Part shown: piece after piece, positions 44,791 through 64,000 of the stretch | Numbering within the stretch: the first letter of the stretch is position 1 | Layout: each line of letters starts with the position of its first letter | Assembly: GCF_005771435.1 (NCBI RefSeq) | Contig: NZ_VANI01000007.1 | Location: 1 to 64,000, forward strand | From: Microbulbifer harenosus | Lineage (GTDB): Bacteria; Pseudomonadota; Gammaproteobacteria; Pseudomonadales; Cellvibrionaceae | Direction of reading: 5' to 3' | Length of the DNA: 64,000 bases | Notes under the pieces: generated by a model | Database searches by the model: none | What the model was told of the DNA's origin: nothing | What the model saw: only the letters and a program-made list of their open reading frames with translations | Translations under genes and position numbers: made by a program

Positions 44791-44826
44791 ACCCGATTTC
44801 GAAACAACGGTACCAAGAAGCTCAAA

Positions 44827-46008
44827 ATGACCGCTGTATCCACGTTTTCTGCAAGCACCGGTGCTGGCGCAGTTGTGAATAAATCGCGTATTGCCTCTAT
44901 CGATATCATGCGCGGTCTGGTGATCGTGCTGATGCTGATCGACCATGTGCGCGAACGGTTCTATCTGCACATGCAGGTATCCGATCCCATGGACGTGCCC
45001 AATACCGATCCCGCGTTGTTCTTTACCCGGCTGTCTGCACATATCTGTGCGCCGACCTTCGTATTTCTGACCGGACTCTCGGCCTGGCTGTATGCCCATC
45101 CGAGCCGGGGTGGGGTGCGCTCGCCCAGCGGGTTTCTGTTCAAACGCGGATTGTTCCTGGTTTTGCTGGAAGTGACCCTGGTGAACTTTTCCTGGGCCGG
45201 AAGCTTCGGCACGTTCTGGCTGCAGGTAATCTGGGCAATCGGCCTCAGCATGATGGCCCTGTCCCTGATCGTGAAATGTCCGCGCTGGGCAATCGGGGCA
45301 ATCGGCTTCGCCATCGTGTTTGGCCACAATCTGCTTACACCGGTTGGCTTCCAGCCCGGTGAGTTTGGCTACAGCCTGTGGACCATACTGCACGACCGCG
45401 GTTTCCTGCTGGACACCGGGGCACTGCGGATCAAGATCAGTTATCCGCTATTGCCGTGGATCGGGGTGATTGCGCTGGGGTACTTTGCCGGACCCCTGTA
45501 TGCGCGTACCACAGATGCGTTTGCCCGCCGCAAAACGTTGGTAGCCATGGGATTGGGTTGCCTGGCACTGTTGCTGGTGTTGCGCGGTTTCAATATTTAC
45601 GGTGAAACCCTGCCGTGGGTGGCCGGCGAAACCGCTCTGCAGACCGCAATGTCGTTCGTCAACTTCACCAAGTATCCACCTTCCCTGGACTTCCTGTTGC
45701 TGACACTGGGCATTGCCTTCCTGTTGCTGGCCTGGTTTGAAAACCGACAGGGCAAATTGATGGACGTGCTGGAAGTGTTCGGCTCAGCCCCGATGTTTTT
45801 CTATATCCTCCATCTCTATGTACTGCTTATTCTCTATCAGATAGTGATCGCGGTAGCCGGACCCAATCACGGTGACCTGTTTGGCGTCGACCATATCTGG
45901 TGGGTCTGGATCATCTCCGCGGCGCTTACTCTGGTGCTCTATTTCCCCACGAAAGCCTTCGCGCGCTTCAAACACTCGACCAGTATGGGCTGGGTAAAGT
46001 ACTTCTGA
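44827..46008 (+). CDS. DUF1624 (HGSNAT-like) membrane protein
   Basis: The polytopic protein of 393 residues has about ten membrane helices. It matches DUF1624, related to heparan-alpha-glucosaminide N-acetyltransferase, with its start IASIDIMRGLVIVLMLIDHV, the FTRLSAHICAPTFVFLTGLS segment and the C-terminal FYILHLYVLLI. Members are thought to move acyl groups across the membrane. It is the second gene behind receptor 1 and probably shares its control. A role in modifying an envelope component or a metallophore under zinc starvation is only inference. Confidence 0.8.
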   Translation: MTAVSTFSASTGAGAVVNKSRIASIDIMRGLVIVLMLIDHVRERFYLHMQVSDPMDVPNTDPALFFTRLSAHICAPTFVFLTGLSAWLYAHPSRGGVRSPSGFLFKRGLFLVLLEVTLVNFSWAGSFGTFWLQVIWAIGLSMMALSLIVKCPRWAIGAIGFAIVFGHNLLTPVGFQPGEFGYSLWTILHDRGFLLDTGALRIKISYPLLPWIGVIALGYFAGPLYARTTDAFARRKTLVAMGLGCLALLLVLRGFNIYGETLPWVAGETALQTAMSFVNFTKYPPSLDFLLLTLGIAFLLLAWFENRQGKLMDVLEVFGSAPMFFYILHLYVLLILYQIVIAVAGPNHGDLFGVDHIWWVWIISAALTLVLYFPTKAFARFKHSTSMGWVKYF

Positions 46009-46167: not shown

Positions 46168-47592
46168 TTAAGCGACCCTGTCGATCACCGCCAAATCCGC
46201 TTCGACCCTTCGTGAGTGGTGCCGCTTCGAAACCGCGCCACTGGCGTCTAACCAACGCAGGCGCGCCATCCCGATCAAGAACACGATCCCCCCCAGCAGC
46301 ATTACCCCCAGCAACTGTGCGCCAATGGATACCGTATCCGTTGCGCGCGGCGCAAACACCGGGCGCGAGGAGAAGTCCTCTCGCTGGAGAGGTTTATCGG
46401 TAAACAGATAGCCGTAGAAAAATTGACGAATCTCCCGGTGAAATTCCGCAATTCGATCCTGGTAGGCCAGTTGCGCTGTCAGGTCTGTTGCGGCTATGCG
46501 ATGCAAAGCCGCCTGTGCGCCGACGCTCGGCAACAGCCAACCAAGATGCTCGGTCCACCGCTGGCGCGCTTCCAGGCCAGTGCGGTAGGCCCGTACTTTT
46601 TCCGCGACGCTCTCGTCCCCCACCTGATGGAATGCCAGATACCATTTCCAGTGAAAACCCTCCGGTAGCGGAGCGGTATCTCGCCACTGCGGGTGGTGCT
46701 CAAAGAACTGCTGCATCGTCTCCTGCCGCGGTACTTCCCAGGCACCGTGCACAGTTTCGCGTTGCGCAAGCATCAGATCGACCCCCTGCTGTACCGGGAT
46801 ACTGCGGGTAATCGCCATATTGGCAAGGGTCGGCAGCACAAGGGTCAGCAGCGTCCAGGCGCCCATCAGTGCCGTGGCATTGGCGGCGGAGGACCAGCCG
46901 CGGGACGACACCCACAGTGACAACCCGACACAGAACGCCAGGTAACTGGCCGTAATCAACAGCGCAACAGCGATGGCAACCGTGGCGGTACCGGATGCCA
47001 GTGCGCCCACGAGTAACGGTAGCGCCAGCGCGGCAAACAGCAATCCATAGCGCAGTGCGGCGCGACGCCGCCACAGGACACCCGCGCCAGGTATCGACAG
47101 CAATAGGCGGAGGCGCCCGGACTGGCGCTCGCCGGAAACCAGGTCGTGCAACAGCGCAATGGCGAACAGCGGCGACAGATAGATCAGCACGAAAGCAAAA
47201 TCGAACCGGCCCGGCAGGGCGAGTTCGGGGTTGAATGTTTCGCCATCGTAAATCTGCGCCTGCAATCCCAACGCACGGATGCGCAGTACGTAGGGCGCCA
47301 CGTCGCGCATGCCCATTGCCATATACGCCGCATCCGAGGGCGGATCCCAGGTATTAAAAAAGGTGTAGTAGGCAAAGCTGCCGGCATCGCCACTGTCCGC
47401 GTAACGATCCGCAACCGCTTCGGCGTCTTTCTGTTGTAATTCCGCCAACCGCTCGATGGTGTGGCGCTGCTGCGCCACCTGCTGCAGCCCCAGCCACACC
47501 GCCAGCGAGGATAACAGCAGCAGTAACAGCAGCGCGCACGACGAGAGTCGCGAACGGAAAATCAGTCGCAACTCATTGGAAAGTAATTTCAT
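46168..47592 (-). CDS. ABC-2 type permease, DUF3526 group (second permease)
   Basis: The inner-membrane protein of 474 residues has six or more helices and a large loop between helix 1 and 2 (about residues 35-170) that would lie in the periplasm, the pattern of DUF3526 permeases. It starts MKLLSNELRLIFRSRLSSC. The ATG overlaps the stop of the preceding permease gene (ATGA), so it is the third gene of a tight operon: ATPase, permease, permease. The two permeases are similar in plan and probably form a heterodimer. The substrate is not known. Confidence 0.85.
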   Translation of the reverse strand: MKLLSNELRLIFRSRLSSCALLLLLLLSSLAVWLGLQQVAQQRHTIERLAELQQKDAEAVADRYADSGDAGSFAYYTFFNTWDPPSDAAYMAMGMRDVAPYVLRIRALGLQAQIYDGETFNPELALPGRFDFAFVLIYLSPLFAIALLHDLVSGERQSGRLRLLLSIPGAGVLWRRRAALRYGLLFAALALPLLVGALASGTATVAIAVALLITASYLAFCVGLSLWVSSRGWSSAANATALMGAWTLLTLVLPTLANMAITRSIPVQQGVDLMLAQRETVHGAWEVPRQETMQQFFEHHPQWRDTAPLPEGFHWKWYLAFHQVGDESVAEKVRAYRTGLEARQRWTEHLGWLLPSVGAQAALHRIAATDLTAQLAYQDRIAEFHREIRQFFYGYLFTDKPLQREDFSSRPVFAPRATDTVSIGAQLLGVMLLGGIVFLIGMARLRWLDASGAVSKRHHSRRVEADLAVIDRVA

Positions 47593-49019
47593 CTTGCCAT
47601 CCTCCCCAGGCGAGTACCTGCCACGCGAATCAACATCGCAAATGCCATCAGCCAACACAACAACACCAAGCCCGCCGGCAGTGCGCGGTCGAGGACATTG
47701 CCTGGCGGCGCAGGACGAAATTCAAACTCCGGGAATGCCTGCCAATGAGTATGTGAAATGCGATTTTCTTTCTTCGGATTGGTATCGTCGGCGTAAACCA
47801 GTTCATCCACCTGCAGCTGGTTGAGCCCCTGGATCAGCTGGTAACGGTAATCCTCTCCCTGGCGGAGAAACCGCTGGAAGTTTTCCAGATCGGTTCCCGC
47901 AGCCGTCATCGACAACCGGCGCAAGGCCAGCGTCGGGCTAAGCCAGGAAAAGTGATCCACCAGTGCATTCTGCTGACGCTGAAGTTCGAACAATGCCTCC
48001 GCATAGCGGTTGAACAGCGCGCTGGAAGCGCGCTCCCCCTCCATACCCACCAGTCCCTTGTAGTTGACTGGAAGATCCTCAATGCGCGTCACCCCGTATT
48101 TTTCCAATACCTGTGCGCGAAAAGCGGAGAAGTATGGATCGTCGGGATTGTGAGCGTCACCGAGTTCCTTGTACTCGCGCTCGGCGTTGATCGCGCTTTC
48201 AAAGCGCGTCGGCAACGGCACGCTAGTATTCACCAGATCCGGAAGCCAGCGAGGTAACAGAATCACCAACACGGCCCAGGCCACCAGCAGAGCGAGCAGC
48301 GCATCGCGACCCCGCTGGAACTGGCTGGAAACTACCACGACCACCAGTGCCCACAGCAACAACCAACCGACATAGGCCACAGCCAGCAACAGTGCCTGCT
48401 CCCACGGCGCGTGCCCACTCACCCCAAGCCAGCCCAGTGCAAACAGGGCCGGCAGCACCGCCAGGCCGGCAAAGCCGCTGAGTGCAAGCAGCTTGCCTGC
48501 GACGATCTGCCTGCCAGCAATGCCCTGAGCCAGCAGCACCCGCAGTGTGCCGGACTCCCGTTCGCGCGCGACCGAGGCATGGCCGACAAAAATCAACAAC
48601 AGCGGCGCCAGTACCTGCAGCACAAAAGCCGGACTCAACAGACCGAAGCGCAGCAGCAGCGAAGACTGGCGGACATCGCCAAAGTTCGCCGTGTTCTGCC
48701 GATGCCCTTCCAGAAACAACGTATTGCCGGTGTACGCATCAATGCCGGGGTCGAAGGCCGCCAGCGGATTGACCGGACGGAACACAAAATGTCCGTAGTG
48801 CACGACCCGGTGCGGGTGCCGGTCCGGTTGCGCCTCAAACGCATGATTGGCCTGCGCCTGGTAATGGGCGCGCTCTGCGTTGGCACTGCGCTGATGCTCG
48901 TAGGCATTCAGTGCCGCGACCAGTGTCAGCAACACCAGGAGCAACAGCCCTGAAATTGCCACCCTGTCACGCAGCAGTAATCGCCATTCCTCGCGGGCGA
49001 TACGCGTCACCACCGTCAT
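47589..49019 (-). CDS. ABC-2 type permease, DUF3526 group (first permease)
   Basis: The 476-residue permease has an N-terminal helix in a segment starting VTRIAREEWRLLLRDRVAIS, a large periplasmic loop (about 40-130), and a membrane domain with ARERESGTLRVLLAQGIAGRQI at the cytoplasmic coupling region (given here as RERESGTLRVLLAQG). It overlaps the ATPase gene upstream and the second permease downstream by four bases each. DUF3526 ABC systems commonly neighbour TonB receptors for metallophores, as here; they are likely exporters or envelope-remodelling pumps more than importers. Confidence 0.85.
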   Translation of the reverse strand: MTVVTRIAREEWRLLLRDRVAISGLLLLVLLTLVAALNAYEHQRSANAERAHYQAQANHAFEAQPDRHPHRVVHYGHFVFRPVNPLAAFDPGIDAYTGNTLFLEGHRQNTANFGDVRQSSLLLRFGLLSPAFVLQVLAPLLLIFVGHASVARERESGTLRVLLAQGIAGRQIVAGKLLALSGFAGLAVLPALFALGWLGVSGHAPWEQALLLAVAYVGWLLLWALVVVVVSSQFQRGRDALLALLVAWAVLVILLPRWLPDLVNTSVPLPTRFESAINAEREYKELGDAHNPDDPYFSAFRAQVLEKYGVTRIEDLPVNYKGLVGMEGERASSALFNRYAEALFELQRQQNALVDHFSWLSPTLALRRLSMTAAGTDLENFQRFLRQGEDYRYQLIQGLNQLQVDELVYADDTNPKKENRISHTHWQAFPEFEFRPAPPGNVLDRALPAGLVLLCWLMAFAMLIRVAGTRLGRMAR

Positions 49020-49795
49020 GCCGCCTGCCCCGCGTAGCGCCGGTGCAGGTTGCGTACATCAAAACGTTCGCTACCTGTCGCGCCCTGTGCCGCAACCTCT
49101 TCCTGCAGAATTCCGGCATTGAGGAAACCGATACGGTCCGCCACCTCCGAAGCACTGAGCAGGTCGTGGGTTACCATCAGTGTGGCAATGCCTCTCGCTC
49201 GCAACAGCTCCAGCAGGCGATTAAATTCGTAGGTCGCCTTCGGGTCCAGACCCGATGTGGGTTCATCCAGAAGTAATGCCGGTACTCGCCGCGCGAGCGC
49301 CAGGGCAATGGCAACTTTTTGGCGCATCCCCTTGGAAAAGCCACCCATACGGCGGTCGAAAGCTGCGGCATCCAGTCCAGCGGCCAGCAGCGCCTGGTCG
49401 ATTTCCCCGGAGCCTGCACTCTGCCCTGCCAGATCGAGCAGATAGACCAGATTCTCGCGGGCACTAAGCTGCTCGTAAAAGGCCACATTCTCGGGAATAT
49501 ACGCCAGCTGACGCCGTGCGTCGGCCGCGCGCGCTACCGGATCAATACCGTTGACCCGCACACGTCCCGAGTCCGGCACCAAAAATCCGAGAAACAGGCT
49601 CAGAGTGGTGCTTTTGCCTGCGCCGTTGGCCCCCAGCAATGCGTAGACCTCACCGGGGCGAACGCTCAGGTCAAGCGACTGCAAGATTGGGCGGGCCCCA
49701 TAACTCGCGGAAACCCCAGCGGCTTCGAGGACATTCGAGGGCGTGTCGAGCGGGACCTTTTTCCCCGCGGTAAAAGTCGAGTGCTCAGAATTCAT
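49016..49795 (-). CDS. ABC transporter ATP-binding protein
   Basis: The ATPase subunit has 259 residues. It has Walker A GANGAGKST, signature FSKGMRQKVAIA (a variant of LSGGQ), Walker B ALLLDEPTSGLDP and the switch His in MVTHDLL. It belongs to the CcmA/NatA-like group that drives ABC-2 permeases. It is the first gene of the operon and is divergent from receptor 2; the shared space holds Zur box 2, which could control both directions. Confidence 0.92.
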   Translation of the reverse strand: MNSEHSTFTAGKKVPLDTPSNVLEAAGVSASYGARPILQSLDLSVRPGEVYALLGANGAGKSTTLSLFLGFLVPDSGRVRVNGIDPVARAADARRQLAYIPENVAFYEQLSARENLVYLLDLAGQSAGSGEIDQALLAAGLDAAAFDRRMGGFSKGMRQKVAIALALARRVPALLLDEPTSGLDPKATYEFNRLLELLRARGIATLMVTHDLLSASEVADRIGFLNAGILQEEVAAQGATGSERFDVRNLHRRYAGQAA

Positions 49796-49854
49796 GATGT
49801 TGCGCCTTTGTTCTCCGTGCCAGCACGTTGGTATTGCATTTACTCAATCAGAAA

Positions 49855-49869
49855 TGTTATATCATATCT
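49855..49869. promoter_or_regulatory. Putative Zur box 2, between ABC operon and second receptor
   Basis: TGTTATATCATATCT fits TGnTA-N5-TATCn. The overlapping 13-mer GTTATATCATATC matches the gammaproteobacterial Zur consensus GTTATA-N-TATAAC at ten of twelve fixed positions, the best of the three sites. It lies 60 bp before the ABC ATPase start and 87 bp before the receptor start, fitting divergent control. Confidence 0.65.
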
Positions 49870-49955
49870 TAATCGCGACAGGCCATACCTGAGTTACCGG
49901 CTCGAAAAATCACGCCTCGCCGCAACCATCGAAAATTTACAGGGATGTTACATAC

Positions 49956-52094
49956 ATGCAGGTGCGCGCATATCTCCCCCAACTACTGCTGGCTGGTGCC
50001 ATTTCGACGAGCGTGACCGAGTTCACCCTCGCACAGGATACAACCGGGGAACTGGAAAATGTCACCGTCACTGCCACACCGTTGAATGACGCCTTTCAGG
50101 TCAGCGCCGGCGCCTTCGGCGATAAAGGCACTATGGAAGTGCCGCTGGCGATCAAAAGTTATGGTGCAGACACCATCGCCGAAACCTCACCGCGCACAGC
50201 GCTCGATCTGCTCGCGGTAGATCCCTCGGTGCTCAACTCCTCCTACGGTGGCGGTTTCGACAATTTCCGTCTTCGCGGCTTCGTGATGGATAATTTCAAC
50301 ACCATTCGCCGCGACGGCCTCGCGCTGGCACCGCATTACGACATGCCACTGGAATTGATTGAGCGCGTGGACGTACTCAAAGGTCCCTCGGGTTTTCTGT
50401 ACGGTTTCAACTCGCCGGGCGGCACCATCAACTACATCCCCAAGCGCCCCACCCGCGATCCCTTTACCTGCATCACGTTACAGGGTAGCTCTCTACAGGA
50501 TCGCTATCTCACGGTAGATACCAGTGCCGCTGTGGCCGAAAACACTATTGGTTACCGACTGAATGCGGGTTATCAAAAGACTGGCGATTTTGATCACCTG
50601 GGCGACCTGGAGCGAAAATTCGCCGGCCTGGCGGCGGACTTTCGTTTGAATGAGCGCGCATTGCTGCAGCTCAATACAGACTGGGCACTGAAAAGCGCGA
50701 TGACCGACCCGCTGCTGCGAGCCGACCAGAGCGGCCGCACGGACCCGCTGGACCCGTCGAGTTTTGTATTGCCTCCCGAAGTGGATCGCCGCGACGGGCT
50801 GTCGCCCTCCTGGTATCAGCACGAGACCGAGGCCCACAATCTTGAAGCCAAGCTCGACTACCGACTCAACGACGACTGGACCTCAATCACCCAGGCCAAC
50901 TACTCGCGGGTAGAGCGCCACGGCGGCTACGCCGATATTTTCGATGTGCAGCCCAATGGCGATATCGGCTATGCCGATCTCTATGCTTCACGCGGCGAAG
51001 TGTTCACGAACTGGTCCGTGCAATCCTACCTCGCCGGCGCGTTTGTCGCGGCCGGGCTGCAGCACGATTTGTTCGCGGGTGCAGCCTACCGACAATTCCG
51101 CGACCGCAGCCCCTTCTGGGATTTTGTCGACAGTACCGGCGGTATCAGCGTCGGCGATATTTCCGTAGGCAATATCCTCGAACCGATTCAGCCGCCTCGC
51201 TGGAATTTCGGCCCCGAGCAGGAAATCGATTTCAATGCCAGCATCCGCGAGCGCTCCCTGTTCGCCAGCGATCTCATCACCCTCGACGAGCGCTTTCAAT
51301 TGCTGCTGGGAGGCCGCCAGATTTGGTACTCCGCGCGCGAACTCTCCGCAGCGGCACCACCACAGGATGAAAGTGTATTCGTGCCCACCGGAGCACTGAT
51401 GTACCGCCCGGCAGCCCCGGTTATGGCTTATGTGAGTTACTCGCGCGGCTTCGAAAAAGGAGAATACTCTCCATACAATGCCAACAACCCCAACCAGCCA
51501 ACCGATGCCATAGCGTCGGAACAAGTCGAGATCGGTCTGAAGGTAGGTTTACACCAGGACTTCAATGCGGGCGTCGCGCTGTTCGATATCCGGCGCGACG
51601 CCAGTTACCTGAACACCAATAATGATTTCGTCAGCAGTGGCCGCTTCCATCACCGCGGCATCGAACTGGATGCCACTGCAAATGTGAACAGCAACTTCAC
51701 CCTGCTCGGCAACATCGCCTATCTGGATACCGAGCTGGAAGATGTGATCGACCCCGCCACGTTGGGCAAGCGCAGTGAGGGGGCGCCGCGTTGGAAAAGC
51801 ACACTCAGTGCCCGCTATGCATTCACCGCGCTACCCGGATTTTCGCTGGACTCGACGCTCAGATACGTCGGCAGCCGCCCAGTAGATACACAAAACAGCG
51901 GCTTTATCCCCGGCTACACACTCTGGGATGCCGGCGCCAGCTACGAAACCAGCCTCGGCGATACCCCGACGACCTTCCGCCTGCACGGAAAGAACCTCAC
52001 CGACAAATATTACTACCCCGGCGTTATCTACAGTGGCGGCCTGGAAGTCGGGCGGATGCGGGAAATATTCCTATCGGCACGATTCGATATCTAG
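49956..52094 (+). CDS. TonB-dependent siderophore/metallophore receptor 2
   Basis: The outer-membrane receptor has 712 residues: signal peptide to about residue 26, TonB-box-like ENVTVTATPL, a plug with FRLRGFVMDNF and RVDVLKGPSGFLYGFNSPGG, and a barrel ending in IFLSARFDI. It heads the biosynthetic cluster, and the next start is 40 bp after its stop. This suggests it imports the compound the cluster makes. No ExbB, ExbD or TonB gene is adjacent, so it relies on a shared system elsewhere. Confidence 0.9.
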   Translation: MQVRAYLPQLLLAGAISTSVTEFTLAQDTTGELENVTVTATPLNDAFQVSAGAFGDKGTMEVPLAIKSYGADTIAETSPRTALDLLAVDPSVLNSSYGGGFDNFRLRGFVMDNFNTIRRDGLALAPHYDMPLELIERVDVLKGPSGFLYGFNSPGGTINYIPKRPTRDPFTCITLQGSSLQDRYLTVDTSAAVAENTIGYRLNAGYQKTGDFDHLGDLERKFAGLAADFRLNERALLQLNTDWALKSAMTDPLLRADQSGRTDPLDPSSFVLPPEVDRRDGLSPSWYQHETEAHNLEAKLDYRLNDDWTSITQANYSRVERHGGYADIFDVQPNGDIGYADLYASRGEVFTNWSVQSYLAGAFVAAGLQHDLFAGAAYRQFRDRSPFWDFVDSTGGISVGDISVGNILEPIQPPRWNFGPEQEIDFNASIRERSLFASDLITLDERFQLLLGGRQIWYSARELSAAAPPQDESVFVPTGALMYRPAAPVMAYVSYSRGFEKGEYSPYNANNPNQPTDAIASEQVEIGLKVGLHQDFNAGVALFDIRRDASYLNTNNDFVSSGRFHHRGIELDATANVNSNFTLLGNIAYLDTELEDVIDPATLGKRSEGAPRWKSTLSARYAFTALPGFSLDSTLRYVGSRPVDTQNSGFIPGYTLWDAGASYETSLGDTPTTFRLHGKNLTDKYYYPGVIYSGGLEVGRMREIFLSARFDI

Positions 52095-52134
52095 CGATCG
52101 GAACGATAACCCCAAGGGAAAGGAAATCCCGCAC

Positions 52135-53568
52135 ATGGACAACATTGAATATCTTGAGAGCGCAGAGAGCAATCGGCACGCGACACCGCCATCACCTTTC
52201 GGTGCGGTGCCTTCGCGCCCCTTCCCGCTAAGCGCCCGCCAGCACCCCGCGGTCGCCGCGCTTCTGCGAAAACATCCTTGTTTCCTTAGCCGGCTGGCGG
52301 ACGGTCTCGGCTCACCACTGCACGTATTGCTGCCGCAGGTATTTGCCGAGAATGTCCGCTGCATGCGCGAGGTATTCAGGGAACACGGGCTGGAAAACCA
52401 GATCCTTTACGCCAAGAAAGCCAACAAGGCCGACTGTTTTGTACATACCGCCGCACAACTGGGTATCGGTGTGGATGTCGCCAGCAGCGGTGAATTCGCG
52501 CGGACGCTGGCCGCCGGCATCCCCGGTGACAGGATCGGCGTGTCGGGTCCAGAGAAAGATGATGCCTTGCTGACCCTGTCGTTACAGCACCGCGCCCTGA
52601 TCGCCATCGATACTCCGGGCGAACTGGAGCGCCTGGCACAGTTGGCCTATCACAACGGTACCGTCGCGTCGGTATTACTGCGCTGCCGGATCGCTAGCCA
52701 GAGTAACAGCCGTTTCGGATTATCGCCCGCGGAACGCAATGCCGCCGTCGACCTGTGCCTGTCCCACAGGGGTGCGGTGCAACTGGAGGGGTTCTCGTTT
52801 CACCTGGGTGGCTACGCTACAGACGAGCGGGCGCGCGCGGCAAACGCCATGATCGACCACTGCCTCGACGCGCGTTCACGCGGCCTGACGGGGTGCAGCC
52901 AGGTAAATATCGGCGGCGGCCTGCCAGTGCAGTACGTGGATCCGCAGCAGTGGGCCGATTTCCTGCGCCGCGACGCCCGCGATCACTATCATGCACACAA
53001 GGTCTTTGGCGGCTTCTATCCCTACGGCGCGGCGCGTGCCGGCGCGCAGGCGCTGCACGACATCCTGCAATACCGCACCAACACCGGGGAGAGTCTCTCG
53101 GCGCGGGCTAAGCGGCACGGCATCTGCTTTATTGCCGAACCCGGGCGCGCGCTGCTGGACCAGGCGGGTTTTACCCTGTTTCGGGTGCAGGCAGTAAAGG
53201 ATCGTCACGCTGCCGAGGGCTACGCGATCCTAAGCGTGCAAGGCAGCAGCCTGAGCCTGTCCGAGCAGTGGTTCAACAGCGAGTACCTACCGGACCCGGT
53301 TCTGTTGAAACCGGGGCAGCCTGCCCCCGAACCCTTTGTTGCCTGCGTCGCCGGTTCTACCTGTCTGGAGAGTGACATGCTGACCTGGCGCAAGATCGGC
53401 TTTCCGCGCGCCGTGTTGCCGGGCGACCAGCTGGTGTACATCAACACGGCCGGCTACCAGATGGATTCGAATGAATCCCCATTCCACGAGGCCCGCCTGC
53501 CATCGAAGGTGGTGCTTGATTATCGCGAAGACGAACAACAGCCGCAGTGGCGACTGGACGGGATCTGA
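52135..53568 (+). CDS. Y4yA-like type III PLP-dependent decarboxylase family enzyme
   Basis: The protein of 477 residues has the alanine racemase-like barrel and a C-terminal beta domain, as in ornithine and diaminopimelate decarboxylases. It has the PLP lysine in YAKKANKADCF, FSFHLGGYATDERA, the glycine loop VNIGGGLPVQY, the phosphate-site EPGRALLDQ, and the C-terminal cysteine segment TCLESDMLTW. It resembles the Y4yA family known from rhizobia and, more distantly, SbnH, which decarboxylates a diaminopropionate intermediate in staphyloferrin B synthesis. The ATG at 52135 follows AAAGGA. It overlaps nothing upstream and leads into sbnB. Confidence 0.82.
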   Translation: MDNIEYLESAESNRHATPPSPFGAVPSRPFPLSARQHPAVAALLRKHPCFLSRLADGLGSPLHVLLPQVFAENVRCMREVFREHGLENQILYAKKANKADCFVHTAAQLGIGVDVASSGEFARTLAAGIPGDRIGVSGPEKDDALLTLSLQHRALIAIDTPGELERLAQLAYHNGTVASVLLRCRIASQSNSRFGLSPAERNAAVDLCLSHRGAVQLEGFSFHLGGYATDERARAANAMIDHCLDARSRGLTGCSQVNIGGGLPVQYVDPQQWADFLRRDARDHYHAHKVFGGFYPYGAARAGAQALHDILQYRTNTGESLSARAKRHGICFIAEPGRALLDQAGFTLFRVQAVKDRHAAEGYAILSVQGSSLSLSEQWFNSEYLPDPVLLKPGQPAPEPFVACVAGSTCLESDMLTWRKIGFPRAVLPGDQLVYINTAGYQMDSNESPFHEARLPSKVVLDYREDEQQPQWRLDGI

Positions 53569-53594
53569 GTATCCAACAACAGCGAGTTGAGAAA

Positions 53595-54587
53595 ATGGAA
53601 AAGCATTATGCGGAACCGGGGGATCTGTGGCTCCTCCCCCAGGCCGAACTCGAGGGCCTGGGTGTGCGTTATACCGAAGTACTGCAGATTGTAGAGCGCG
53701 CTTTTATCGCCCTGCGCAATGGCGACTCCGAGAATCCCCTCAAGACCGTCGTGCAGCCCCGCGATCTGCGTTCAATCGGCTATTCGATGGTAGGCCGGGA
53801 CGGCGCCAGCAATACCGTTGGCTTCAAGGTCGTCTACGAGTTCGACCCGCAACGCAACCGCGATGCCTACAACTTCCACTCGTTCCTGTTTCTGTGCGAC
53901 GACACCAGCGGCAAACCCGTCGCACTGATGGATGTGGTCAAGCTGGGTCCGCTGCGCACTTCGGCCACCTCCGCGCTGATGGCGCGCGCCGCACACCCGG
54001 ACGCCCGCAGTGCGCTGGTGGTGGGTACCGGCGTGCAGGGACGCATCGCACTGCCCATGCTGCTGGCAGCCCTGCCGGATTTAGAACATCTGCGGGTTTA
54101 CGGCCAACACCAAGCGGGCCTGCAGGCGGTGCGCGAGGAAGTCCGCCGCATGTACCCGGATCGCGACGTCGAGATTGTATCGGATCTGCCCCGCGCCGCC
54201 GCACAGTCGGATATCGTCATCGGCGCCGCCGGTCTCTCCGCGCGGCAACAGGTCAAGCGCGCTTGGTTAAAGCCGGGCGCGGTCGCCGTGCTGCTCGGAT
54301 ACGGTGTGGATGCCGATGTGCTGCACGGTGCCGACTACCGCATTACCACAGATAGAGCGCAGATGAGCGTCACCTGTGGCGACCTTGCCGATGCCGACGG
54401 CAATATCCCGCCGGTCGACGCAGAGCTGCCGGATATCCTGCTGGGACAGGTGCCGGCGCGACGCAAAAAAGACGACCTGGTGTTCGCCTACAACAGCGGC
54501 ATGGTGGTTTCCGACGTGGCGTTGGGACGCTACCTCGCGGACCTGGCACTTGCGGAGGGGCGCGGCATGAGGACAAGGCTATGGTGA
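53595..54587 (+). CDS. sbnB: SbnB-like dehydrogenase (2,3-diaminopropionate synthesis)
   Basis: The 330-residue protein belongs to the ornithine cyclodeaminase/mu-crystallin family and resembles SbnB. SbnB oxidises N-(1-amino-1-carboxy-2-ethyl)-glutamate with NAD to release L-2,3-diaminopropionate and 2-oxoglutarate. It has the nucleotide loop ALVVGTGVQGRIALPML, the KLGPLRTSATSALMA segment and a conserved C-terminal YNSGMVVSDVALG. It begins 26 bp after the decarboxylase stop and overlaps the MATE gene by seven bases. The SbnA-like partner is three genes downstream, which makes the assignment firmer than for the family alone. Confidence 0.85.
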   Translation: MEKHYAEPGDLWLLPQAELEGLGVRYTEVLQIVERAFIALRNGDSENPLKTVVQPRDLRSIGYSMVGRDGASNTVGFKVVYEFDPQRNRDAYNFHSFLFLCDDTSGKPVALMDVVKLGPLRTSATSALMARAAHPDARSALVVGTGVQGRIALPMLLAALPDLEHLRVYGQHQAGLQAVREEVRRMYPDRDVEIVSDLPRAAAQSDIVIGAAGLSARQQVKRAWLKPGAVAVLLGYGVDADVLHGADYRITTDRAQMSVTCGDLADADGNIPPVDAELPDILLGQVPARRKKDDLVFAYNSGMVVSDVALGRYLADLALAEGRGMRTRLW

Positions 54588-55996
54588 GCACAGCGCAAAA
54601 AAGCGCGCCCCGGCTACCGCACTGGCGCGGCGAGGCCCGCACCATTGCGATACTGGCATTGCCACTGATCCTGACCAATTTCGCGCATGTGGCACTGACC
54701 ACTATCGACATCGTGGTGCTGGGCACCCTGGGTACGCTTGAAATTGCCGCGGGCGGCCTGGCGATCGCGTTGTTCAATCAGCTGCGTACCACGGGAAGTG
54801 GCCTGGTCACCGGCGTTAGCAACCTGGTGGCCGAGGCACAGGCGCGCGGTGAACAGCAGCGCGTTCGCGACCTTCTCGTGGCCGGGTTCTTCTGGGCCAC
54901 GGTAAGCGGCGTCGTTTTCGCGGCCACCCTGCCACTGATAGAGGCGCCATTGGTGTGGCTGGGACAGGATCCGATTGTTGCGGCTGCGGCCGTCCACTTT
55001 CTGCAGATCGCCGCACCGGGGCTGGTTCCCTGCCTCTGGTTTCAAGTACTGCGGCACTTCACCGTGGGCCTCAAGCACCCGGGCCCACTGCTGGCTATCA
55101 CACTGATTTCCATTGCCCTCACTGCCGGACTGAACTACCTGCTGGTGTACGGCAAGTTCGGCCTGCCAGCGCTGGGGCTCCTCGGTGTCGCGCTGGCTAC
55201 CAGTGCAGTCTTTTTGTTGTCGTTCCTGATGTTTCTGACAGTGGTGCTCAGAAGTCCGGTATTGGGGCCATATTTTTCCCGCTCCGGGCTGCGCTGGTCC
55301 TCGGATGCGGTGGGCGCAGTCTGGCGGCTGGGATTGCCGATCGCCGGCACCTACACGTCAGAAGCGGGCTTTTTCAGCGTGCTGACACTGCTGATCGGTA
55401 CTCTGGGTATGGAGGCTCTGGCCGCGCAGACGGTGCTTAACCAGATCATCTACATCGTGTTCATGATTTCCGCCGGCATTTCCCACGCAGCTTCGATCCA
55501 TATCAGTGAAGCCTGCGGTACCGGCGATTTCCGTCGGGCACAGAGGCTGGGACTCGTCAGCCTGGCTCTGGGCATCGTCGCCATGCTTGCTATCGCCCTG
55601 CCCTACATGGTGATACCAGAGACCATAGTGTCTCTGTTTATCTCCGCCGACCAGCAGGCGAACGCCACCACCCTGGCACTGGCTGCCTCCGGCCTGTTAA
55701 TCGCCGCGTTACTGCAAATCTTCGATGCCGGTCAGAACATCGGCAACGGCCTGCTGCGCGGTACCGGCGATACCGCGGGCCCCTTCCGCATCTCGCTTGT
55801 CGGCTACTGGCTGGTGGGCCTGCCGGCAGCCTACCTGCTCGGTATTGCCGCTGATTACGGCATCTACGGCGTGTGGATCGGCCAGACATTTGGCCTGGCT
55901 TCCACCGCCGCACTACTGGTGATCTCGTTCCGTCGGCGCCTGCAACATTTGGCGCTGCGAACGACACCGAACCTGGCCGCATCCAATCCACTGTAA
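54581..55996 (+). CDS. MATE family efflux transporter
   Basis: The inner-membrane exporter of 471 residues has twelve hydrophobic helices in two halves (ILALPLILTNFAHVALTTID begins the first half; LGLPIAGTYTSEAGFFSVL begins the second). MATE pumps export small cationic or polar compounds with H+ or Na+. The start overlaps the sbnB stop, so it is translated with the biosynthetic genes. The most direct explanation is export of the compound made by the cluster. Confidence 0.9.
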   Translation: MVSTAQKSAPRLPHWRGEARTIAILALPLILTNFAHVALTTIDIVVLGTLGTLEIAAGGLAIALFNQLRTTGSGLVTGVSNLVAEAQARGEQQRVRDLLVAGFFWATVSGVVFAATLPLIEAPLVWLGQDPIVAAAAVHFLQIAAPGLVPCLWFQVLRHFTVGLKHPGPLLAITLISIALTAGLNYLLVYGKFGLPALGLLGVALATSAVFLLSFLMFLTVVLRSPVLGPYFSRSGLRWSSDAVGAVWRLGLPIAGTYTSEAGFFSVLTLLIGTLGMEALAAQTVLNQIIYIVFMISAGISHAASIHISEACGTGDFRRAQRLGLVSLALGIVAMLAIALPYMVIPETIVSLFISADQQANATTLALAASGLLIAALLQIFDAGQNIGNGLLRGTGDTAGPFRISLVGYWLVGLPAAYLLGIAADYGIYGVWIGQTFGLASTAALLVISFRRRLQHLALRTTPNLAASNPL

Positions 55997-56011
55997 AACC
56001 AAGGAACGGAA

Positions 56012-57163
56012 ATGGAGATGGAAACAGAAGGCGTAAACAGTTATTCGCCCGCGGTGCGGGCGCTGGTGCGCCCGGAGGTACACCGCCTGCCAGCCTACGA
56101 TCCCGGCGCCGATCCCGAAGCCGTGGCGCGTGACTTTCACTTGCCGCGGGTCATCAAATTATCCAACAACGAGAATCCCTACGGCATCTCTCCCGCTGCC
56201 GCCGCTGCCATTCATCGACGACTGGCCAAGGGCATGGGCCGCTATCCGGATCCTGCGGGAGAAGCGCTTTGCACGGTTTTAGCGGATCGTCATTGTGTCG
56301 AACGGAAGCGAGTGCTTATCGGCAATGGCTCAGAAAACATTCTTGAACTGTTGTGCCAGGCATTTATCAACGCCGGCGACACAGTGGTTACCCAATCACC
56401 GTGCTTCGGCCTGCACGAGATATTTCCGCTGATGATGGGCGCACGGCTGCATAAGGTCCCATTGCGCGCAGACTTCCGCTTCGACGCGCCGCGCTGGCGG
56501 GCAGCGCTGGACGGGCCGGTAAAGCTCGTGCTGGTCAGCCACCCCTGCAACCCATCCGGAACGGTGTTCAGTGGTGATCAATTGGAGTATCTGATCCATC
56601 ACACACCAGACTCCGCCCTTCTCGTTGTGGACGAGGCCTATTTCGAATACGCGCGGGTGGACGCCTGCTACGCGGACGCGCTCGAAGCGTTGCGTCACCG
56701 CAGCCGCCCGTGGCTGGTGTTGCGGACCTTTTCCAAGGCCTATGGACTCGCGGGGTTACGTGTCGGTTACGGCATCGCCTCCCATGTCAACCTGATCGAG
56801 GCCCTGCATCGCGTGCGCACGCCCTATAACGTCAATCAGTTGGCCCAGGACGCGGCCATCGCGGCACTGGACGATAGCGCCCACCTGCAAAAAAGCGCGC
56901 GTCTGGTCAGGGGCGAGCGCACCCGGATCACGGCCGCGTTGCGCGATGCGGGTTTTCGGGTCGCGCCCTCACTGGCCAATTTCCTTTTTATCGACACCGA
57001 TGGCGATGCCTTGAGCATCGTGCGGGACCTCCAGCGCGTGGGCGTTATTGTCAAGGCCTGGCGCGAGCCCGGCTACGAAAGCTACATCCGCGCCTCGCTG
57101 GCGCTGCCGGCAGAGAACGATGCCTTTCTGCAAGCACTGCTGCGCACCCGGGTCGGTGCGTAA
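56012..57163 (+). CDS. HisC-like class I/II aminotransferase
   Basis: The PLP enzyme has 383 residues. Its marks are KLSNNENPYGISPAA at the start, NGSENILELLCQAF, the Asn of SHPCNPSGTV, the Asp and Tyr of VVDEAYFEYA, the PLP lysine in RTFSKAYGLAGLRVGYG, and a C-terminal Arg in IRASLAL. It resembles histidinol-phosphate aminotransferase, but no other his gene is here. It is more likely a cluster-specific enzyme acting on an amino acid such as diaminopropionate or its derivative. CobD-like decarboxylation is another option. It lies 15 bp after the MATE gene. Confidence 0.82.
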   Translation: MEMETEGVNSYSPAVRALVRPEVHRLPAYDPGADPEAVARDFHLPRVIKLSNNENPYGISPAAAAAIHRRLAKGMGRYPDPAGEALCTVLADRHCVERKRVLIGNGSENILELLCQAFINAGDTVVTQSPCFGLHEIFPLMMGARLHKVPLRADFRFDAPRWRAALDGPVKLVLVSHPCNPSGTVFSGDQLEYLIHHTPDSALLVVDEAYFEYARVDACYADALEALRHRSRPWLVLRTFSKAYGLAGLRVGYGIASHVNLIEALHRVRTPYNVNQLAQDAAIAALDDSAHLQKSARLVRGERTRITAALRDAGFRVAPSLANFLFIDTDGDALSIVRDLQRVGVIVKAWREPGYESYIRASLALPAENDAFLQALLRTRVGA

Positions 57164-57243
57164 CTCCCGCAGACTGTTTGGAATCCAGACATAAAGAAAA
57201 CCGATTGTGCCCATGTGAATTGCGAATTTTCAGGAGACCAGTC

Positions 57244-58320
57244 ATGCCCCCTATTGCATCCCATTCCCCGATAAAAACCCGTATATCAGATTTGATCGGT
57301 CAGTCGCCGCTGCTCGAACTGCCTGTGGCTGCAAACGGTGCTCGTGTGTTGCTGAAGCTTGAGCAGTTTAACCCCACTGGCAGCGCCAAAATCAGGATGG
57401 CACGGCAGATGATAGAAGAGGCCGAAGCACAAGGGAGACTCGGGCCCGGTGGCTGGATCGTGGAATCGACCTCGGGCAATACCGGTCTCGGTCTCGCGCT
57501 ACTGGCGGCGGAACGCGGCTATCGTTTTACCGCAGTGGTCGACCACCACGCCAGTGCCGACAAACTGCGCGGCATGCGGGCCTACGGTGCCGAGTTAATA
57601 CAGGTTGGCAGTGCCGACGGCAGCCTGGCGACCGCGGATCGCGATGCCACCGCCGAACAGTTAGCGCAGCAGCACGACGCCTTCTGGACCCAGCAGCACA
57701 ACAATCCCGGCAATGCGAATGGTTACCACGGGCTCGCCGATGAACTGCGTCAGGCGCTGGGCGACGATATCCATTTCCTGTTCGGCGCGGTGGGCACCGG
57801 TGGCTCCCTGTGCGGCACCGGCCGGGCACTCAGGCAGCATATTCCGAATTTGCGAATTGTCGGCGTTGAACCTGAGGGCTCGGTAATTTTTGGCGGTGAC
57901 GGCGCTCCCTATCACCAGTCAGGTACAGGCACTCCGGCTGGTGCGGAAATCGGCGGGTTGATCGACTACGAGCTGATCGACGAGGGACTCAGGGTCAGTG
58001 ACGCGGAAGCGTTCGAAACGGCTCGCTATCTTGCGCGCCGGCACGCCGTTCTGGTGGGAGGCTCTGCCGGCGGTGTGATTTACAAGGCATTGCAACACGC
58101 CCGAACTTTAGATGCGGGCAGCACGGTCGTAGTGCTGGTTTGCGACGGGGGCGAAAAATACCTGGATACGGTCTTTAACGACGAATGGATGGCGGCAAAC
58201 GATCTCTACAGTGAAAGGGTGGTGAGGGAGCTGGATAGCCTGCTGCAGTCGCCGACATCGCGGAAGCCGCCGACAACATCGCCCGCGAATACGCAACCCG
58301 CGCTGGCACAGGAGGTTTAA
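57244..58320 (+). CDS. sbnA: SbnA-like cysteine synthase family enzyme (2,3-diaminopropionate synthesis)
   Basis: The 358-residue PLP enzyme of the cysteine synthase fold resembles SbnA, which joins O-phosphoserine and glutamate to N-(1-amino-1-carboxy-2-ethyl)-glutamate. It has the PLP lysine in LEQFNPTGSAKIRMARQM, where the usual Asp after Lys-X is replaced, the substrate loop ESTSGNTGLGLALL, the phosphate loop GTGGSLCGTGRAL, and the C-terminal segment VLVCDGGEKYLDTV. The ATG at 57244 has AGGAG eight bases upstream. It is the last gene of the cluster and converges on the M3 peptidase gene. Confidence 0.85.
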   Translation: MPPIASHSPIKTRISDLIGQSPLLELPVAANGARVLLKLEQFNPTGSAKIRMARQMIEEAEAQGRLGPGGWIVESTSGNTGLGLALLAAERGYRFTAVVDHHASADKLRGMRAYGAELIQVGSADGSLATADRDATAEQLAQQHDAFWTQQHNNPGNANGYHGLADELRQALGDDIHFLFGAVGTGGSLCGTGRALRQHIPNLRIVGVEPEGSVIFGGDGAPYHQSGTGTPAGAEIGGLIDYELIDEGLRVSDAEAFETARYLARRHAVLVGGSAGGVIYKALQHARTLDAGSTVVVLVCDGGEKYLDTVFNDEWMAANDLYSERVVRELDSLLQSPTSRKPPTTSPANTQPALAQEV

Positions 58321-60841: not shown

Positions 60842-61843
60842 TCAATCAGCGCTCAACGCATTGAGCAAGGCTGATTCCAGCGCGCACCAGTTCCGAGGTT
60901 CCTGAACAATTACTTCCACTCGGCTGTCAATTGCATCATCCAAATCCATGACACTCAGGACGTCACCGGATTTATTAAAGCCGAAAACACCCTGCCCGGT
61001 AATGAAGACACCTTTTACCCGCTCTGCATCCGCACCACTAATCAGTGCAAACAGCTGATCGTAATCAAATACCATCATCGGATCAAAACGCCAACCACAA
61101 CTGTAGTAGCCGCCTCCCCGGTTTTCCTTGCGCAAGTAGCCGCACTCGGGAAGCGTTTCATCTTCAACAGAAGGTAGCGATTGATGTATGTGAGGGTAAT
61201 TTTCTTCAACTTGAAAATTACTGGGCCCGTGTAACCACTCCAGTTGGATACGACCCTGTTCAACGGTTAGCAGTGACTCCTCAGCATCCTTTCCCAGAAA
61301 TCCGAGAAAGCGGCTGAGATTTTCCAGCTCCCGCTCACCGTAGAGATCCACTTTGTTGGCAACCACCAGATCGGCGACCTCCAGTTGCTGCCGGAAGGTG
61401 TCGCTCTTCAGGTAGCGGTCGTCCTCGATGCAACGCGCATCCACCAGGGTGAGCGTAGCGCGCAGATCCAGAACGCCGCTCGCTACCTGGCCGGCGAGCG
61501 TACCCAGCACTTCCTGCGGGTGACCGAGACCAGTGGGTTCAATCAGTAAACGGTGCGGCCTGGCTCTGGTCAGCAGCTGATTCAGTGCAACCTGCATTGG
61601 CAGGCCGGCGCTACAGCACATGCAGCCGCCGGGCACTTCCCGGATAAAGAGTTCTCCATCCCGGGAGGAACCAAACAACCCGCCATCGACACCCACCTCG
61701 CCGAATTCATTGACGAGTACCGCCCAGCGCTCACCCGAAGGCTTTTTGTTCAGCAGATGACGGATGGCGGTAGTCTTGCCGACCCCGAGAAACCCGGTAA
61801 TGACATTGACCGGTACGCCACGAATCGCCTCCCGTTTCTGCAC
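60842..61843 (-). CDS. CobW/COG0523 GTPase metallochaperone 1
   Basis: The G3E GTPase of about 333 residues has the P-loop GFLGVGKTT near residues 17-25, the metal-binding CxCC in GGCMCCSAGL, the guanine-specific NKVD, and a C-terminal CobW_C-like domain. Such proteins supply zinc to client enzymes under starvation. I chose a GTG start at 61843 that shares a base with the zur stop (TAGTG), so translation is coupled; a TTG 13 codons upstream would run inside zur. It is the last gene of the merC-zrgA-zur-cobW run. Confidence 0.88.
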   Translation of the reverse strand: MQKREAIRGVPVNVITGFLGVGKTTAIRHLLNKKPSGERWAVLVNEFGEVGVDGGLFGSSRDGELFIREVPGGCMCCSAGLPMQVALNQLLTRARPHRLLIEPTGLGHPQEVLGTLAGQVASGVLDLRATLTLVDARCIEDDRYLKSDTFRQQLEVADLVVANKVDLYGERELENLSRFLGFLGKDAEESLLTVEQGRIQLEWLHGPSNFQVEENYPHIHQSLPSVEDETLPECGYLRKENRGGGYYSCGWRFDPMMVFDYDQLFALISGADAERVKGVFITGQGVFGFNKSGDVLSVMDLDDAIDSRVEVIVQEPRNWCALESALLNALSAD

Positions 61844-62313
61844 TAGGCAGCACTCCGCTCTGCACAGTCGTCGCAGAGGCAATCCAGCTCCAGTTGCGAT
61901 GTCTGCAGACGATAGCCAGCCCCCTCGACGGTCTCCCGCAGGGCGGCGATTACTTCGGGCTTGATACCGATTTCCCGCACTTTGTTGCAGCGACTGCAGA
62001 TCAGGAACTGCGGCGTCTGGTGGCTGTGGTCACAGGCAATATGAGCACAGGCGAGGTACTTGTTTTCAGAATTGAGCTTGTGGGCCAGATTCTCTTCGGC
62101 CAGAAAGTCCAACATTCTGTATACCGACATAGCGGGGATAGACTCACCGTAATCGCGACCGTACTGCTCCGCGATTTCGTAGGCGGAGAGTGGTGTCTTG
62201 GAGCGCAGCAATATGGCGAGCACATTCTTGCGCTTCTCGGTCAGACGGGCGCCGGAGGTACGGCAGCTCTGCTCGGCAGCCCCCAGGGTGCGTTTGAGTT
62301 GGGATGCTTTCAT
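61843..62313 (-). CDS. zur: Zur-type Fur family transcriptional repressor
   Basis: The 156-residue regulator has an N-terminal winged helix with SIPAMSVYRMLDFLAEENLA as the recognition region and a C-terminal dimer and metal domain. Structural zinc cysteines are Cys106/Cys109 (ICSRCNK) and the C-terminal CLCDDC (145-150). The regulatory-site segment ACDHSHQTPQFL has the Cys and His pair typical of Zur, not of Fur. Zinc-loaded Zur represses uptake genes. Its place with CobW, MerC and ZrgA-like genes strengthens the assignment. The ATG follows the zrgA remnant stop by three bases. Confidence 0.87.
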   Translation of the reverse strand: MKASQLKRTLGAAEQSCRTSGARLTEKRKNVLAILLRSKTPLSAYEIAEQYGRDYGESIPAMSVYRMLDFLAEENLAHKLNSENKYLACAHIACDHSHQTPQFLICSRCNKVREIGIKPEVIAALRETVEGAGYRLQTSQLELDCLCDDCAERSAA

Positions 62314-62593: not shown

Positions 62594-62956
62594 TTAATCG
62601 CTACACAGCAGGCGGCGGTTTGCCCAGTGAGCAGCCACCAACAGACTGGCGCCGATTGTGCTGACCACCAATTCCCAGTGCCCTTCAAGTCCCAAGGCCA
62701 CCGCAAGCATCAGTATCGACACCCCGGAAAAGCCAGCAATCATCACTGCGGGACGCCGATGTTGGCGACAAGCCGCAGGAAAGCTCACCAAAGCAATGAG
62801 TACTGCCAGCGCCAGCAGCACCAAGTGCAGCATCTCGTCTTATACAACGGCACTCAGCACTCCCGCGCCTCCCAGCACAACAAGTAGTGGCGCTGTCAGG
62901 CAGTGCAGCAAGCACAGACCTGTAACAAAAATGCCCGCGGTATCTTTCATCTTCAT
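62594..62956 (-). pseudogene. merC: MerC-family membrane protein gene with in-frame TAA
   Basis: Two open segments in the same frame together give a MerC-like protein of about 120 residues. The first (62956 to 62843) has the start MKMKDTAGIFVTGLCLLHCL with the cysteine pair. The second (62839 to 62594) has the last helices and the final AHWANRRLL. A TAA at 62840-62842 interrupts them between VLSAVV and DEMLHLVLLALA. A single base change from a Tyr codon would explain it. MerC-family proteins move metal ions. It is the first gene left of Zur box 3. Confidence 0.7.
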
Positions 62957-63027
62957 TTCTCCGCTTAGCAATGGGATAACAGGGCTTGGTGTAGATCGGG
63001 CGTTACACGATGATTCCCACACAAGTA

Positions 63028-63042
63028 TGATACAGTGTATCA
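63028..63042. promoter_or_regulatory. Putative Zur box 3, between merC and cobW 2
   Basis: TGATACAGTGTATCA fits TGnTA-N5-TATCn. It is the centre of a perfect dyad with 9-bp arms, TATGATACA-G-TGTATCATA (63026-63044), the most symmetric of the three sites. It lies 72 bp before the merC start and 109 bp before the second cobW start, fitting divergent control of both. Confidence 0.65.
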
Positions 63043-63150
63043 TATCAATCAGGAGATGAAAGCGGTCTCGGCGTCCCCCCTCTGGACATCGCCGAGACTG
63101 CCAATAAACACGTGGCGACGCCACCTTCAGCCCAATATGGAGATCCCCGC

Positions 63151-64000
63151 ATGCGAGAGCGCCTGCCCGTCACCGTTCTTTCCGGCTTTTTAGGCGCCGG
63201 CAAAACCACCCTGTTGAATCAAATTCTCAACAATCGCGACGCCCTGCGCGTAGCGGTAATCGTCAATGACATGAGCGACGTCAATATCGATGCCGGGCTC
63301 GTCAACAATGAAATACGCCTCAACCGCACAGAGGAAAAGCTCGTCGAAATGAGCAATGGCTGCATCTGCTGCACACTGCGGGAAGACCTGCTGGTAGAGG
63401 TCGCGAGACTGGCGGAAGAAGGTCGCTTTGACTGCCTGGTAATTGAATCCACCGGCATTTCCGAACCTCTGCCAGTTGCGGAAACCTTTACTTTCGCGGA
63501 TGAAGAGGGGAATAGCCTCTCCGAAATTGCACGGCTGGACACGATGGTCACAGTAGTCGACGGGGCGAATTTCCTCCGGGATTACCGCGCGGCGCAGTCA
63601 TTGAAGGAAGCTGGCGAATACCTGAGCGATGAGGATGAGCGCAATGTAGCCGATCTGCTTGTAGACCAGGTTGAGTTCTGCGATATCCTGCTCATCAGTA
63701 AAGTCGATTTGATTGATGCACAACACCTGGAGGAGTTAAAGGCGGTGCTGCGCGGCCTCAATACCCGCGCGGAAATCCTGCCGATGGAGAAAGGCAATAT
63801 ACCCATCGACAAAGTCGTGAACACCGGAAAATTCAATTTTGAACAGGCGCAACAGGCACCGGGATGGCTGAAAGAAATGCGCGGAGAACATATTCCGGAG
63901 AGTGAAGAATACGGAATTACCAGCTTTACCTACCGCGCGCGCCGTCCGTTCCATCCGCAACGCGTGCACGACTTCTTTACCAATCCGCAACTCAGTGGTC
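63151..64000 (+). CDS. CobW/COG0523 GTPase metallochaperone 2 (ZigA/YciC-like), partial
   Basis: The gene runs off the right edge; 283 codons are seen. It has the P-loop [10 protein letters not shown] (residues 11-20), the CxCC motif CICC (71-74) in [12 protein letters not shown], the ESTGISEP switch segment and SKVDLID as the base-specificity loop. This is the subgroup of Zur-controlled zinc chaperones such as ZigA and YciC. The ATG at 63151 lies behind Zur box 3. The C-terminal CobW_C domain begins near the edge. Confidence 0.9.

Follow-up and report, generated by a model that had tools for sequence, protein, structure and literature searches.

Within a 64,000-nucleotide stretch of the Microbulbifer harenosus genome (contig NZ_VANI01000007.1, positions 1 to 64,000; hereafter the window), six genes at positions 49956-58320 probably form an operon that makes, exports and re-imports a zinc-binding aminopolycarboxylate of the ethylenediamine type, related to ethylenediaminedisuccinic acid (EDDS) and ethylenediaminesuccinic acid hydroxyarginine (EDHA), and that is repressed by Zur. 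We favour this reading because the core genes form a widely conserved cassette, because the window belongs to a clade marked by a HisC-like gene, because a Zur-type site is conserved in front of these loci, because genes for a Zur-like regulator, a G3E GTPase and ZigA lie close by, and because a congener (G016) carries the same operator. The class itself is known, and the locus adds a new branch to it. An earlier note on this DNA had called the type of metallophore undescribed; this does not stand, since the aminopolycarboxylic acid class (EDDS, EDHA; AesA-D) is already in print.

The operon and the predicted pathway

All six open reading frames (ORFs) are intact and lie on the + strand in the order TonB-Y4yA-SbnB-MATE-HisC-SbnA. 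The first encodes a TonB-dependent siderophore-type receptor (49956-52094) with Pfam plug and barrel domains, scoring 260.3 bits with TIGR01783 (cut-off 223.5). It is followed by genes for a Y4yA-type fold-III pyridoxal phosphate (PLP) decarboxylase (52135-53568; Pfam Orn_Arg_deC_N, 82.4 bits), an NAD(P) enzyme like SbnB and ornithine cyclodeaminase (53595-54587; Pfam OCD_Mu_crystall, 96.7 bits), a MATE exporter (54581-55996; TIGR00797, 204.5 bits, cut-off 147.4), a HisC-like class I/II aminotransferase that serves as the subtype marker (56012-57163; TIGR01141, 288.9 bits, cut-off 276.55) and a PLP enzyme like SbnA and cysteine synthase (57244-58320; Pfam PALP, 237.4 bits). The SbnB and MATE genes overlap by 7 nucleotides (nt) and the remaining gaps measure 40, 26, 15 and 80 nt, lengths that presuppose ATG starts at 52135 for the Y4yA-like gene and at 57244 for the SbnA-like gene. 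The six co-directional genes of the earlier note, with their overlapping or nearly touching starts and stops, are thus borne out.

The Y4yA-like protein is 40-43% identical to seven family members, and the KKANK, EPGR and CxExD positions are invariant across the eight aligned proteins, the window's included. We take these to be catalytic positions in fold-III PLP decarboxylases. The SbnA-like protein shares 35-54% identity with six cassette members and the SbnB-like protein at most 76% with cassette members elsewhere.

The order of enzymatic steps that we propose follows from chemical reasoning. The SbnA-like enzyme would add the amino group of an amino acid, for example L-aspartate, to an aminoacrylate formed from O-phosphoserine or O-acetylserine, yielding an N-(2-amino-2-carboxyethyl) amino acid. 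The Y4yA-type enzyme would decarboxylate the new amino-acid end to give an N-(2-aminoethyl) amino acid, and the SbnB-like enzyme would couple the amine to a 2-oxo acid by imine reduction, so that the finished chelator would be assembled without a synthetase of the kind independent of nonribosomal peptide synthetases (NIS synthetase). As a building block, the HisC-like enzyme may provide O-phosphoserine or else an amino or 2-oxo acid. The MATE protein would export the chelator, the TonB receptor would carry the zinc complex into the periplasm, and Zur would repress the operon when zinc is plentiful. Export by MATE and re-uptake by the receptor had already been suggested in the earlier note and are supported here; both proteins pass the NCBIfam cut-offs of their families.

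A conserved cassette of a known metallophore class

We searched a genome contig collection with a profile built from a seven-member SbnB alignment; this returned 103 relatives, and the best 80 of the 103 gave the 80 loci used below, for which ORF calls and score thresholds were mechanical. Genes for SbnB-like, Y4yA, SbnA/CysK-like and MATE proteins were found together within 10 kb in 75 of the 80 loci, in hosts from the actinobacteria and the alpha-, beta- and gammaproteobacteria. Five loci lacked the complete set: an ABC exporter pair replaces MATE in L078 and L079, the contig end cuts L085, L102 (on a Ti plasmid) has no MATE, and the SbnA of L132 is a fragment below the score threshold. Among the 80, L085 and L086 have identical SbnB and lie at opposite ends of a single contig, L118 and L119 are identical, and L130 and L131 nearly so. 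The six-gene set is no chance grouping, as the window's exact gene order recurs in six Pseudomonas loci (L069-L073 and L083); in L083 the Y4yA frame is split into two pieces. The earlier note had proposed a genome-neighbourhood search; the loci gathered here show a conserved four-gene core and, in Pseudomonas, the full order with HisC and TonB.

Plasmid searches gave 88 records with the SbnB-like query and 180 with the Y4yA-like query. When seven annotated plasmid regions were inspected, SbnB-like, Y4yA and CysK-like genes were clustered in six, five of which also had MATE; the seventh (L066) holds Y4yA and MATE without SbnB. An unannotated region (L068) had all four cassette genes in an ORF scan. 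The Agrobacterium Ti plasmids L063 (4250-12403) and L102 both carry the three-enzyme cassette without MATE, and that of L063 comes after a phosphoenolpyruvate-mutase gene set. Matches to the Y4yA query across the whole phylum were mostly weak and partial (after the window itself, the best two at 277 and 265 bits, then at most 79) and were taken as ordinary decarboxylases.

The decarboxylase and MATE genes are part of a known metallophore core. The program antiSMASH 7 includes an aminopolycarboxylic acid metallophore class, and the described clusters join genes for a cysteine synthase, a diaminopimelate decarboxylase and an ornithine cyclodeaminase. Such a cluster in Nocardia mangyaensis has a MATE gene and a DmdR1 (iron) site, and one in Corynebacterium striatum has been likened to that of EDDS. 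In Burkholderia anthina clade II, a four-gene AesA-D operon was assigned to EDHA, Nocardia brasiliensis being named as well; both assignments were made by sequence similarity. EDHA is called iron-responsive and its family is said to span 24 genera, while EDDS of Amycolatopsis japonicum is zinc-repressed via Zur. The accessible text of a paper on zinc starvation in Burkholderia describes no comparable cluster.

The window holds the CysK/SbnA-like, OCD/SbnB-like and diaminopimelate decarboxylase-like genes together with MATE, as in Aes-type clusters. It resembles the EDDS cluster of A. japonicum (Spohn 2016) as a probable locus for a zinc- and Zur-controlled aminopolycarboxylate, and a putative Zur operator precedes its biosynthetic genes too. 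The zinc-binding aminocarboxylate related to EDDS that the earlier note had guessed is thus consistent with the shared core cassette and the Zur-type site. The core cassette is present in related Amycolatopsis species, in loci without HisC. Compared with these EDDS-type loci, the window adds a HisC-like enzyme and a TonB receptor, has another gene order and falls in a separate clade.

With the EDHA operon AesA-D (Spohn 2018) the window shares the four-gene core and the antiSMASH class. EDHA, however, is called iron-responsive, whereas the site in the window is of the Zur type and none of the DtxR type is present, and none of its six genes is a hydroxyarginine source (a VioC- or MppP-type arginine hydroxylase). 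Such a gene is a doubtful mark of EDHA, since VioC- and MppP-type genes are both absent from the fetched stretches of B. anthina (L090) and N. brasiliensis (L130, L131), species to which EDHA has been assigned; the rule that a VioC-type gene means EDHA is weakened accordingly.

The staphyloferrin B proteins SbnA and SbnB belong to the same enzyme superfamilies as the window's SbnA- and SbnB-like proteins, but the latter fall below the equivalog cut-offs and the one genome searched, that of the window, has no IucA/IucC NIS synthetase, which rules out staphyloferrin B or another NIS siderophore. An exporter and a TonB receptor without an inner-membrane importer are the general scheme of pseudopaline- and staphylopine-type zincophores. 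The window cluster likewise has an exporter and a TonB receptor and no dedicated inner-membrane importer, and shares with them Zur control, predicted for the window and reported in the literature for these zincophores. Their enzymes are different; no CntL- or CntM-type family was among the matches of the six cluster proteins, the rest of the genome not having been searched for CntL or CntM.

A clade marked by a HisC-like gene

In a FastTree phylogeny of SbnB (88 rows, with local support values and no bootstrap; L066, having no SbnB, was omitted), the window groups with the 12 HisC loci and L074 in one clade of 14 rows with a local support of 100. Besides the six Pseudomonas loci, the HisC loci comprise six from actinobacteria, four of which keep the window's order minus TonB; L078 and L079 also lack MATE. 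The cluster of L079 (Amycolatopsis azurea, 13028-17672) is of the HisC type with an ABC exporter pair and a methyltransferase. HisC is not found whole in every clade member: L074 (Xylophilus ampelinus, 8357-13729) holds only a 41-residue remnant (residues 338-378, 61% identity, E 3e-10). This locus, a decaying member of the clade, has no TonB gene, and a possible TonB remnant in it was not significant (19 residues, E 0.23).

We aligned the HisC-like proteins of the window and of nine of the 12 HisC loci. The motif KxWREPGY is present in all ten, while its Lys is replaced by Arg in two paralogues from the same genome and in four solved relatives. Despite this signature of its own, the HisC-like protein of the window scores above the equivalog cut-off for HisC, so that it may or may not have HisC activity. 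In the literature searched, which left out most subscription journals, neither the HisC type nor any member from Pseudomonas was found described, so that as far as the searches reached the HisC-bearing branch is an undescribed and uncharacterised branch of the known class.

A TauD-type gene marks a second kind of locus (18 of 80), and the remaining loci have neither HisC nor a TauD-type gene and are called plain. The closest solved structure to the TauD-type protein of plasmid locus L065 is an L-arginine beta-hydroxylase (180.6 bits); that of L081 is closest to a 'non-heme iron hydroxylase' (226.9 bits) and then to L-arginine hydroxylases (206 bits). An MppP-like arginine hydroxylase with an extra aminotransferase occurs in two of the 80 loci, L075 and L076, both in the HisC clade. 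These MppP-like proteins score 235 and 241 bits, under the cut-off of 450, and that of L076 reaches 299 bits against the solved MppP.

It is conceivable, though we hold it only tentatively, that the HisC branch makes an undescribed zincophore with an ethylenediamine core and one arm set by an acid that the aminotransferase supplies, for instance an imidazole-bearing arm or, where MppP is present (L075, L076), a 4-hydroxyarginine arm. This would be one member of a modular family with a constant three-enzyme core, a swapped building-block gene (none, VioC-type, HisC, or HisC and MppP) and a swapped regulator (Zur or DtxR). Our confidence in it is reduced by counter-examples to the idea that the chelator arm can be read from the appended gene.

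A supply role for HisC fits as well as an arm-setting one, as HisC is constant in the clade and MppP variable. The operon may on this account make EDDS itself, the HisC-like enzyme topping up a precursor such as oxaloacetate, or O-phosphoserine from phosphohydroxypyruvate, and the product would not be new; we consider this rather unlikely. The core is shared with Amycolatopsis loci that have Zur-type sites, and some relatives of HisC, CobD among them, bind phospho-amino acids. A ParB-type gene precedes the cassette in four alphaproteobacterial plasmid regions, and the single NCBIfam match of this protein in L062 is to the serine kinase SerK (39 bits, under the cut-off of 380), a hint at O-phosphoserine supply. 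Such a SerK-like ParB gene was found in 17 of the 68 other loci and in none of the 12 HisC loci, a mutual exclusion with HisC that is suggestive but weak. On the other hand, the plain clade stands well apart from the HisC clade, which retains a HisC with its own signature, and the plain cassette of Amycolatopsis is only presumed to be the EDDS locus.

Predicted operator sites and metal control

A Zur-type dyad, GAAATGTTATATCATATC, lies at 49851-49868 on the + strand, in the intergenic region that the cluster shares with a divergent ABC operon, and against a Zur consensus its score was equalled in none of 1000 shuffles. For the other loci, the leading gene of the cassette was given a presumed start, and the region from 300 nt before it to 90 nt after it was scored with three operator patterns against 200 mononucleotide shuffles each at a threshold of 0.01. 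The starts were guessed by script, and a DtxR-like site at L097 and L104 (Rhodococcus/Amycolatopsis) was lost under a later start rule.

A gamma-Zur-like element precedes the TonB gene in all six Pseudomonas HisC loci, and a 7-1-7 Zur-type site was called in five of the six actinobacterial ones, so that among the HisC loci 11 of 12 have a Zur-type site and none a DtxR site. The Zur-like dyad of the earlier note thus has an equivalent at every Pseudomonas locus. The other kinds behaved differently: TauD loci of actinobacteria had a DtxR site in four of five and no Zur-type site, and those of proteobacteria a 7-1-7 site, either Fur or Zur, in four of 13. Plain actinobacterial loci (n = 36) gave 10 Zur-type and 6 DtxR sites, 19 without any and one artefact (L132, matches with at least 8 mismatches), and plain proteobacterial loci any site in two of 13. 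In total, 42 of the 80 loci had no called site. Four plain-cassette Amycolatopsis loci (L137, L139, L141 and L146) had a Zur-type site.

Searched with at most one mismatch in three genomes, the Pseudomonas element gave 12 matches and a reversed control 2. Of the 12, three belong to the clusters themselves, three precede genes for ZnuD-like receptors, four fall in folE2/amidase intergenic regions and two are unassigned. One ZnuD-like and one FolE2 protein were scored with family models (304.6 bits, under the cut-off of 950, for the former, whose sequence was cut off, and 330.2 bits against a cut-off of 215 for the latter), the others being recognised by visual comparison of their N-terminal residues. 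Genes znuD and folE2 are Zur targets. Zinc control via the predicted Zur operator is therefore supported at the level of sequence.

An iron siderophore, or a dual iron and zinc chelator like EDHA, is an improbable product; the Zur-like element would then be secondary. Such a product would agree with the siderophore type of the receptor, with the DtxR sites of the TauD (4/5) and plain (6/36) actinobacterial loci, with the iron response reported for EDHA and with Fur-like sequence in the Pseudomonas promoters. Against it stand the absence of DtxR sites from the HisC loci and the recurrence of the Pseudomonas element in front of folE2 and of genes for ZnuD-like receptors. In the window promoter, moreover, no Fur-type 7-1-7 site was called (shuffle share 0.68) and no DtxR-type site was found, the best match having 8 mismatches and being equalled in 61% of shuffles.

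Several observations weigh against a Zur-repressed zinc chelator made by these six genes. A Fur-like GATAACGATTCTCA lies beside the Zur-like element in the Pseudomonas promoters, two of the six reach the 7-1-7 threshold, and iron may also matter there; the 7-1-7 pattern by itself cannot separate Zur from Fur. No site was called at L074 and L075, both in the HisC clade. In the window's genome, two operator-pattern searches found no more matches than the reversed patterns used as controls (2 against 3, and 15 against 28), and the dyads of zigA and znuA match the cluster site loosely. The SbnA-like protein scores 256.8 bits with the NCBIfam equivalog model TIGR03945 (cut-off 349.95) and the SbnB-like protein 86.1 bits with TIGR03944 (cut-off 326.9). 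Since these cut-offs are missed, the names SbnA and SbnB denote family membership only and true equivalogs are ruled out; the enzyme families given in the earlier note stand, while its free diaminopropionate intermediate is unsupported. Finally, a 2069-residue ORF of the nonribosomal peptide synthetase (NRPS) type, with condensation-domain matches, lies on contig C9 (191938-197262). The statement that there is neither an NIS synthetase nor an NRPS hence holds for the cluster, and for IucA/IucC in the whole genome, but not for NRPS-type proteins.

It is very unlikely that the enzymes do no more than supply diaminopropionate, or an amino acid like it, to a pathway completed elsewhere, for instance by this single NRPS-type protein of the genome: SbnA/SbnB-type pairs often feed NRPS pathways, according to the literature, but this set travels with its own exporter and, in the window, its own receptor, and it misses both equivalog cut-offs.

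History of the locus and neighbouring genes

With the SbnB-like query, some match was found in 48 of 194 other genomes; the best reached 65 bits against 728 for the query itself, so none of the 194 has a close homologue. In the congener G016, the ABC operon (80% identity for one membrane protein) adjoins a complete cobW gene (71%) and zur-zigA, and neither the M3 peptidase nor any of the five cluster proteins besides the TonB receptor has a match in the 25 kb fetched. Its promoter has a 23-nt run identical to the window that includes the operator, against 65% identity elsewhere (simulated P 0.002), and it retains a frame beginning MQVR, as in the window's TonB gene. The simplest reading is that G016 lost a cluster present in the common ancestor. 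A recent insertion in the window's genome had been considered and is displaced by this loss, since the promoter and the beginning of the TonB frame are still present in G016, next to an otherwise complete cobW gene.

The divergent operon (46168-49795, - strand) encodes an ABC-2 type exporter with an ATPase and two membrane proteins, and its functional link to the cluster is uncertain. Both membrane proteins are poorly classified, and relatives of one occur in only three of 47 other congeners. Further upstream, at 42517-46008, a second siderophore-type TonB receptor gene is followed by one for an acyltransferase/HGSNAT-like membrane protein.

On the other side, a G3E (CobW-type) GTPase and a Zur-like regulator of the Fur family are encoded at 60842-62313 on the - strand (Pfam cobW, 147.6 bits; FUR, 52.3 bits). 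The best NCBIfam model for the regulator is Zur, at 79.6 bits under a cut-off of 167. The earlier note had placed zur, cobW and merC near the cluster; the first two are found there, while the ORF that it labelled merC-like (62594-62956, - strand), beside zur, is interrupted by an in-frame stop after 38 codons. The G016 form is uninterrupted. A second Zur-like dyad (63025-63046), partly conserved in G016, lies between the merC/zur side and the start of a gene for the ZigA zinc metallochaperone GTPase (63112-64000, + strand; NF038288, 678.9 bits, cut-off 600), which extends beyond the window.

Implications

Only a small number of dedicated zincophores have been described, and EDDS is the product of an actinomycete. 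With the HisC branch, Gram-negative bacteria would gain a Zur-linked example equipped with a TonB receptor of its own, and its hosts include Pseudomonas species amenable to culture and mutation. Should the gene adjacent to the core indicate the arm of the chelator, and the operator its metal, a large number of unread clusters would become readable. Such chelators may also be of practical interest as biodegradable substitutes for ethylenediaminetetraacetic acid (EDTA).

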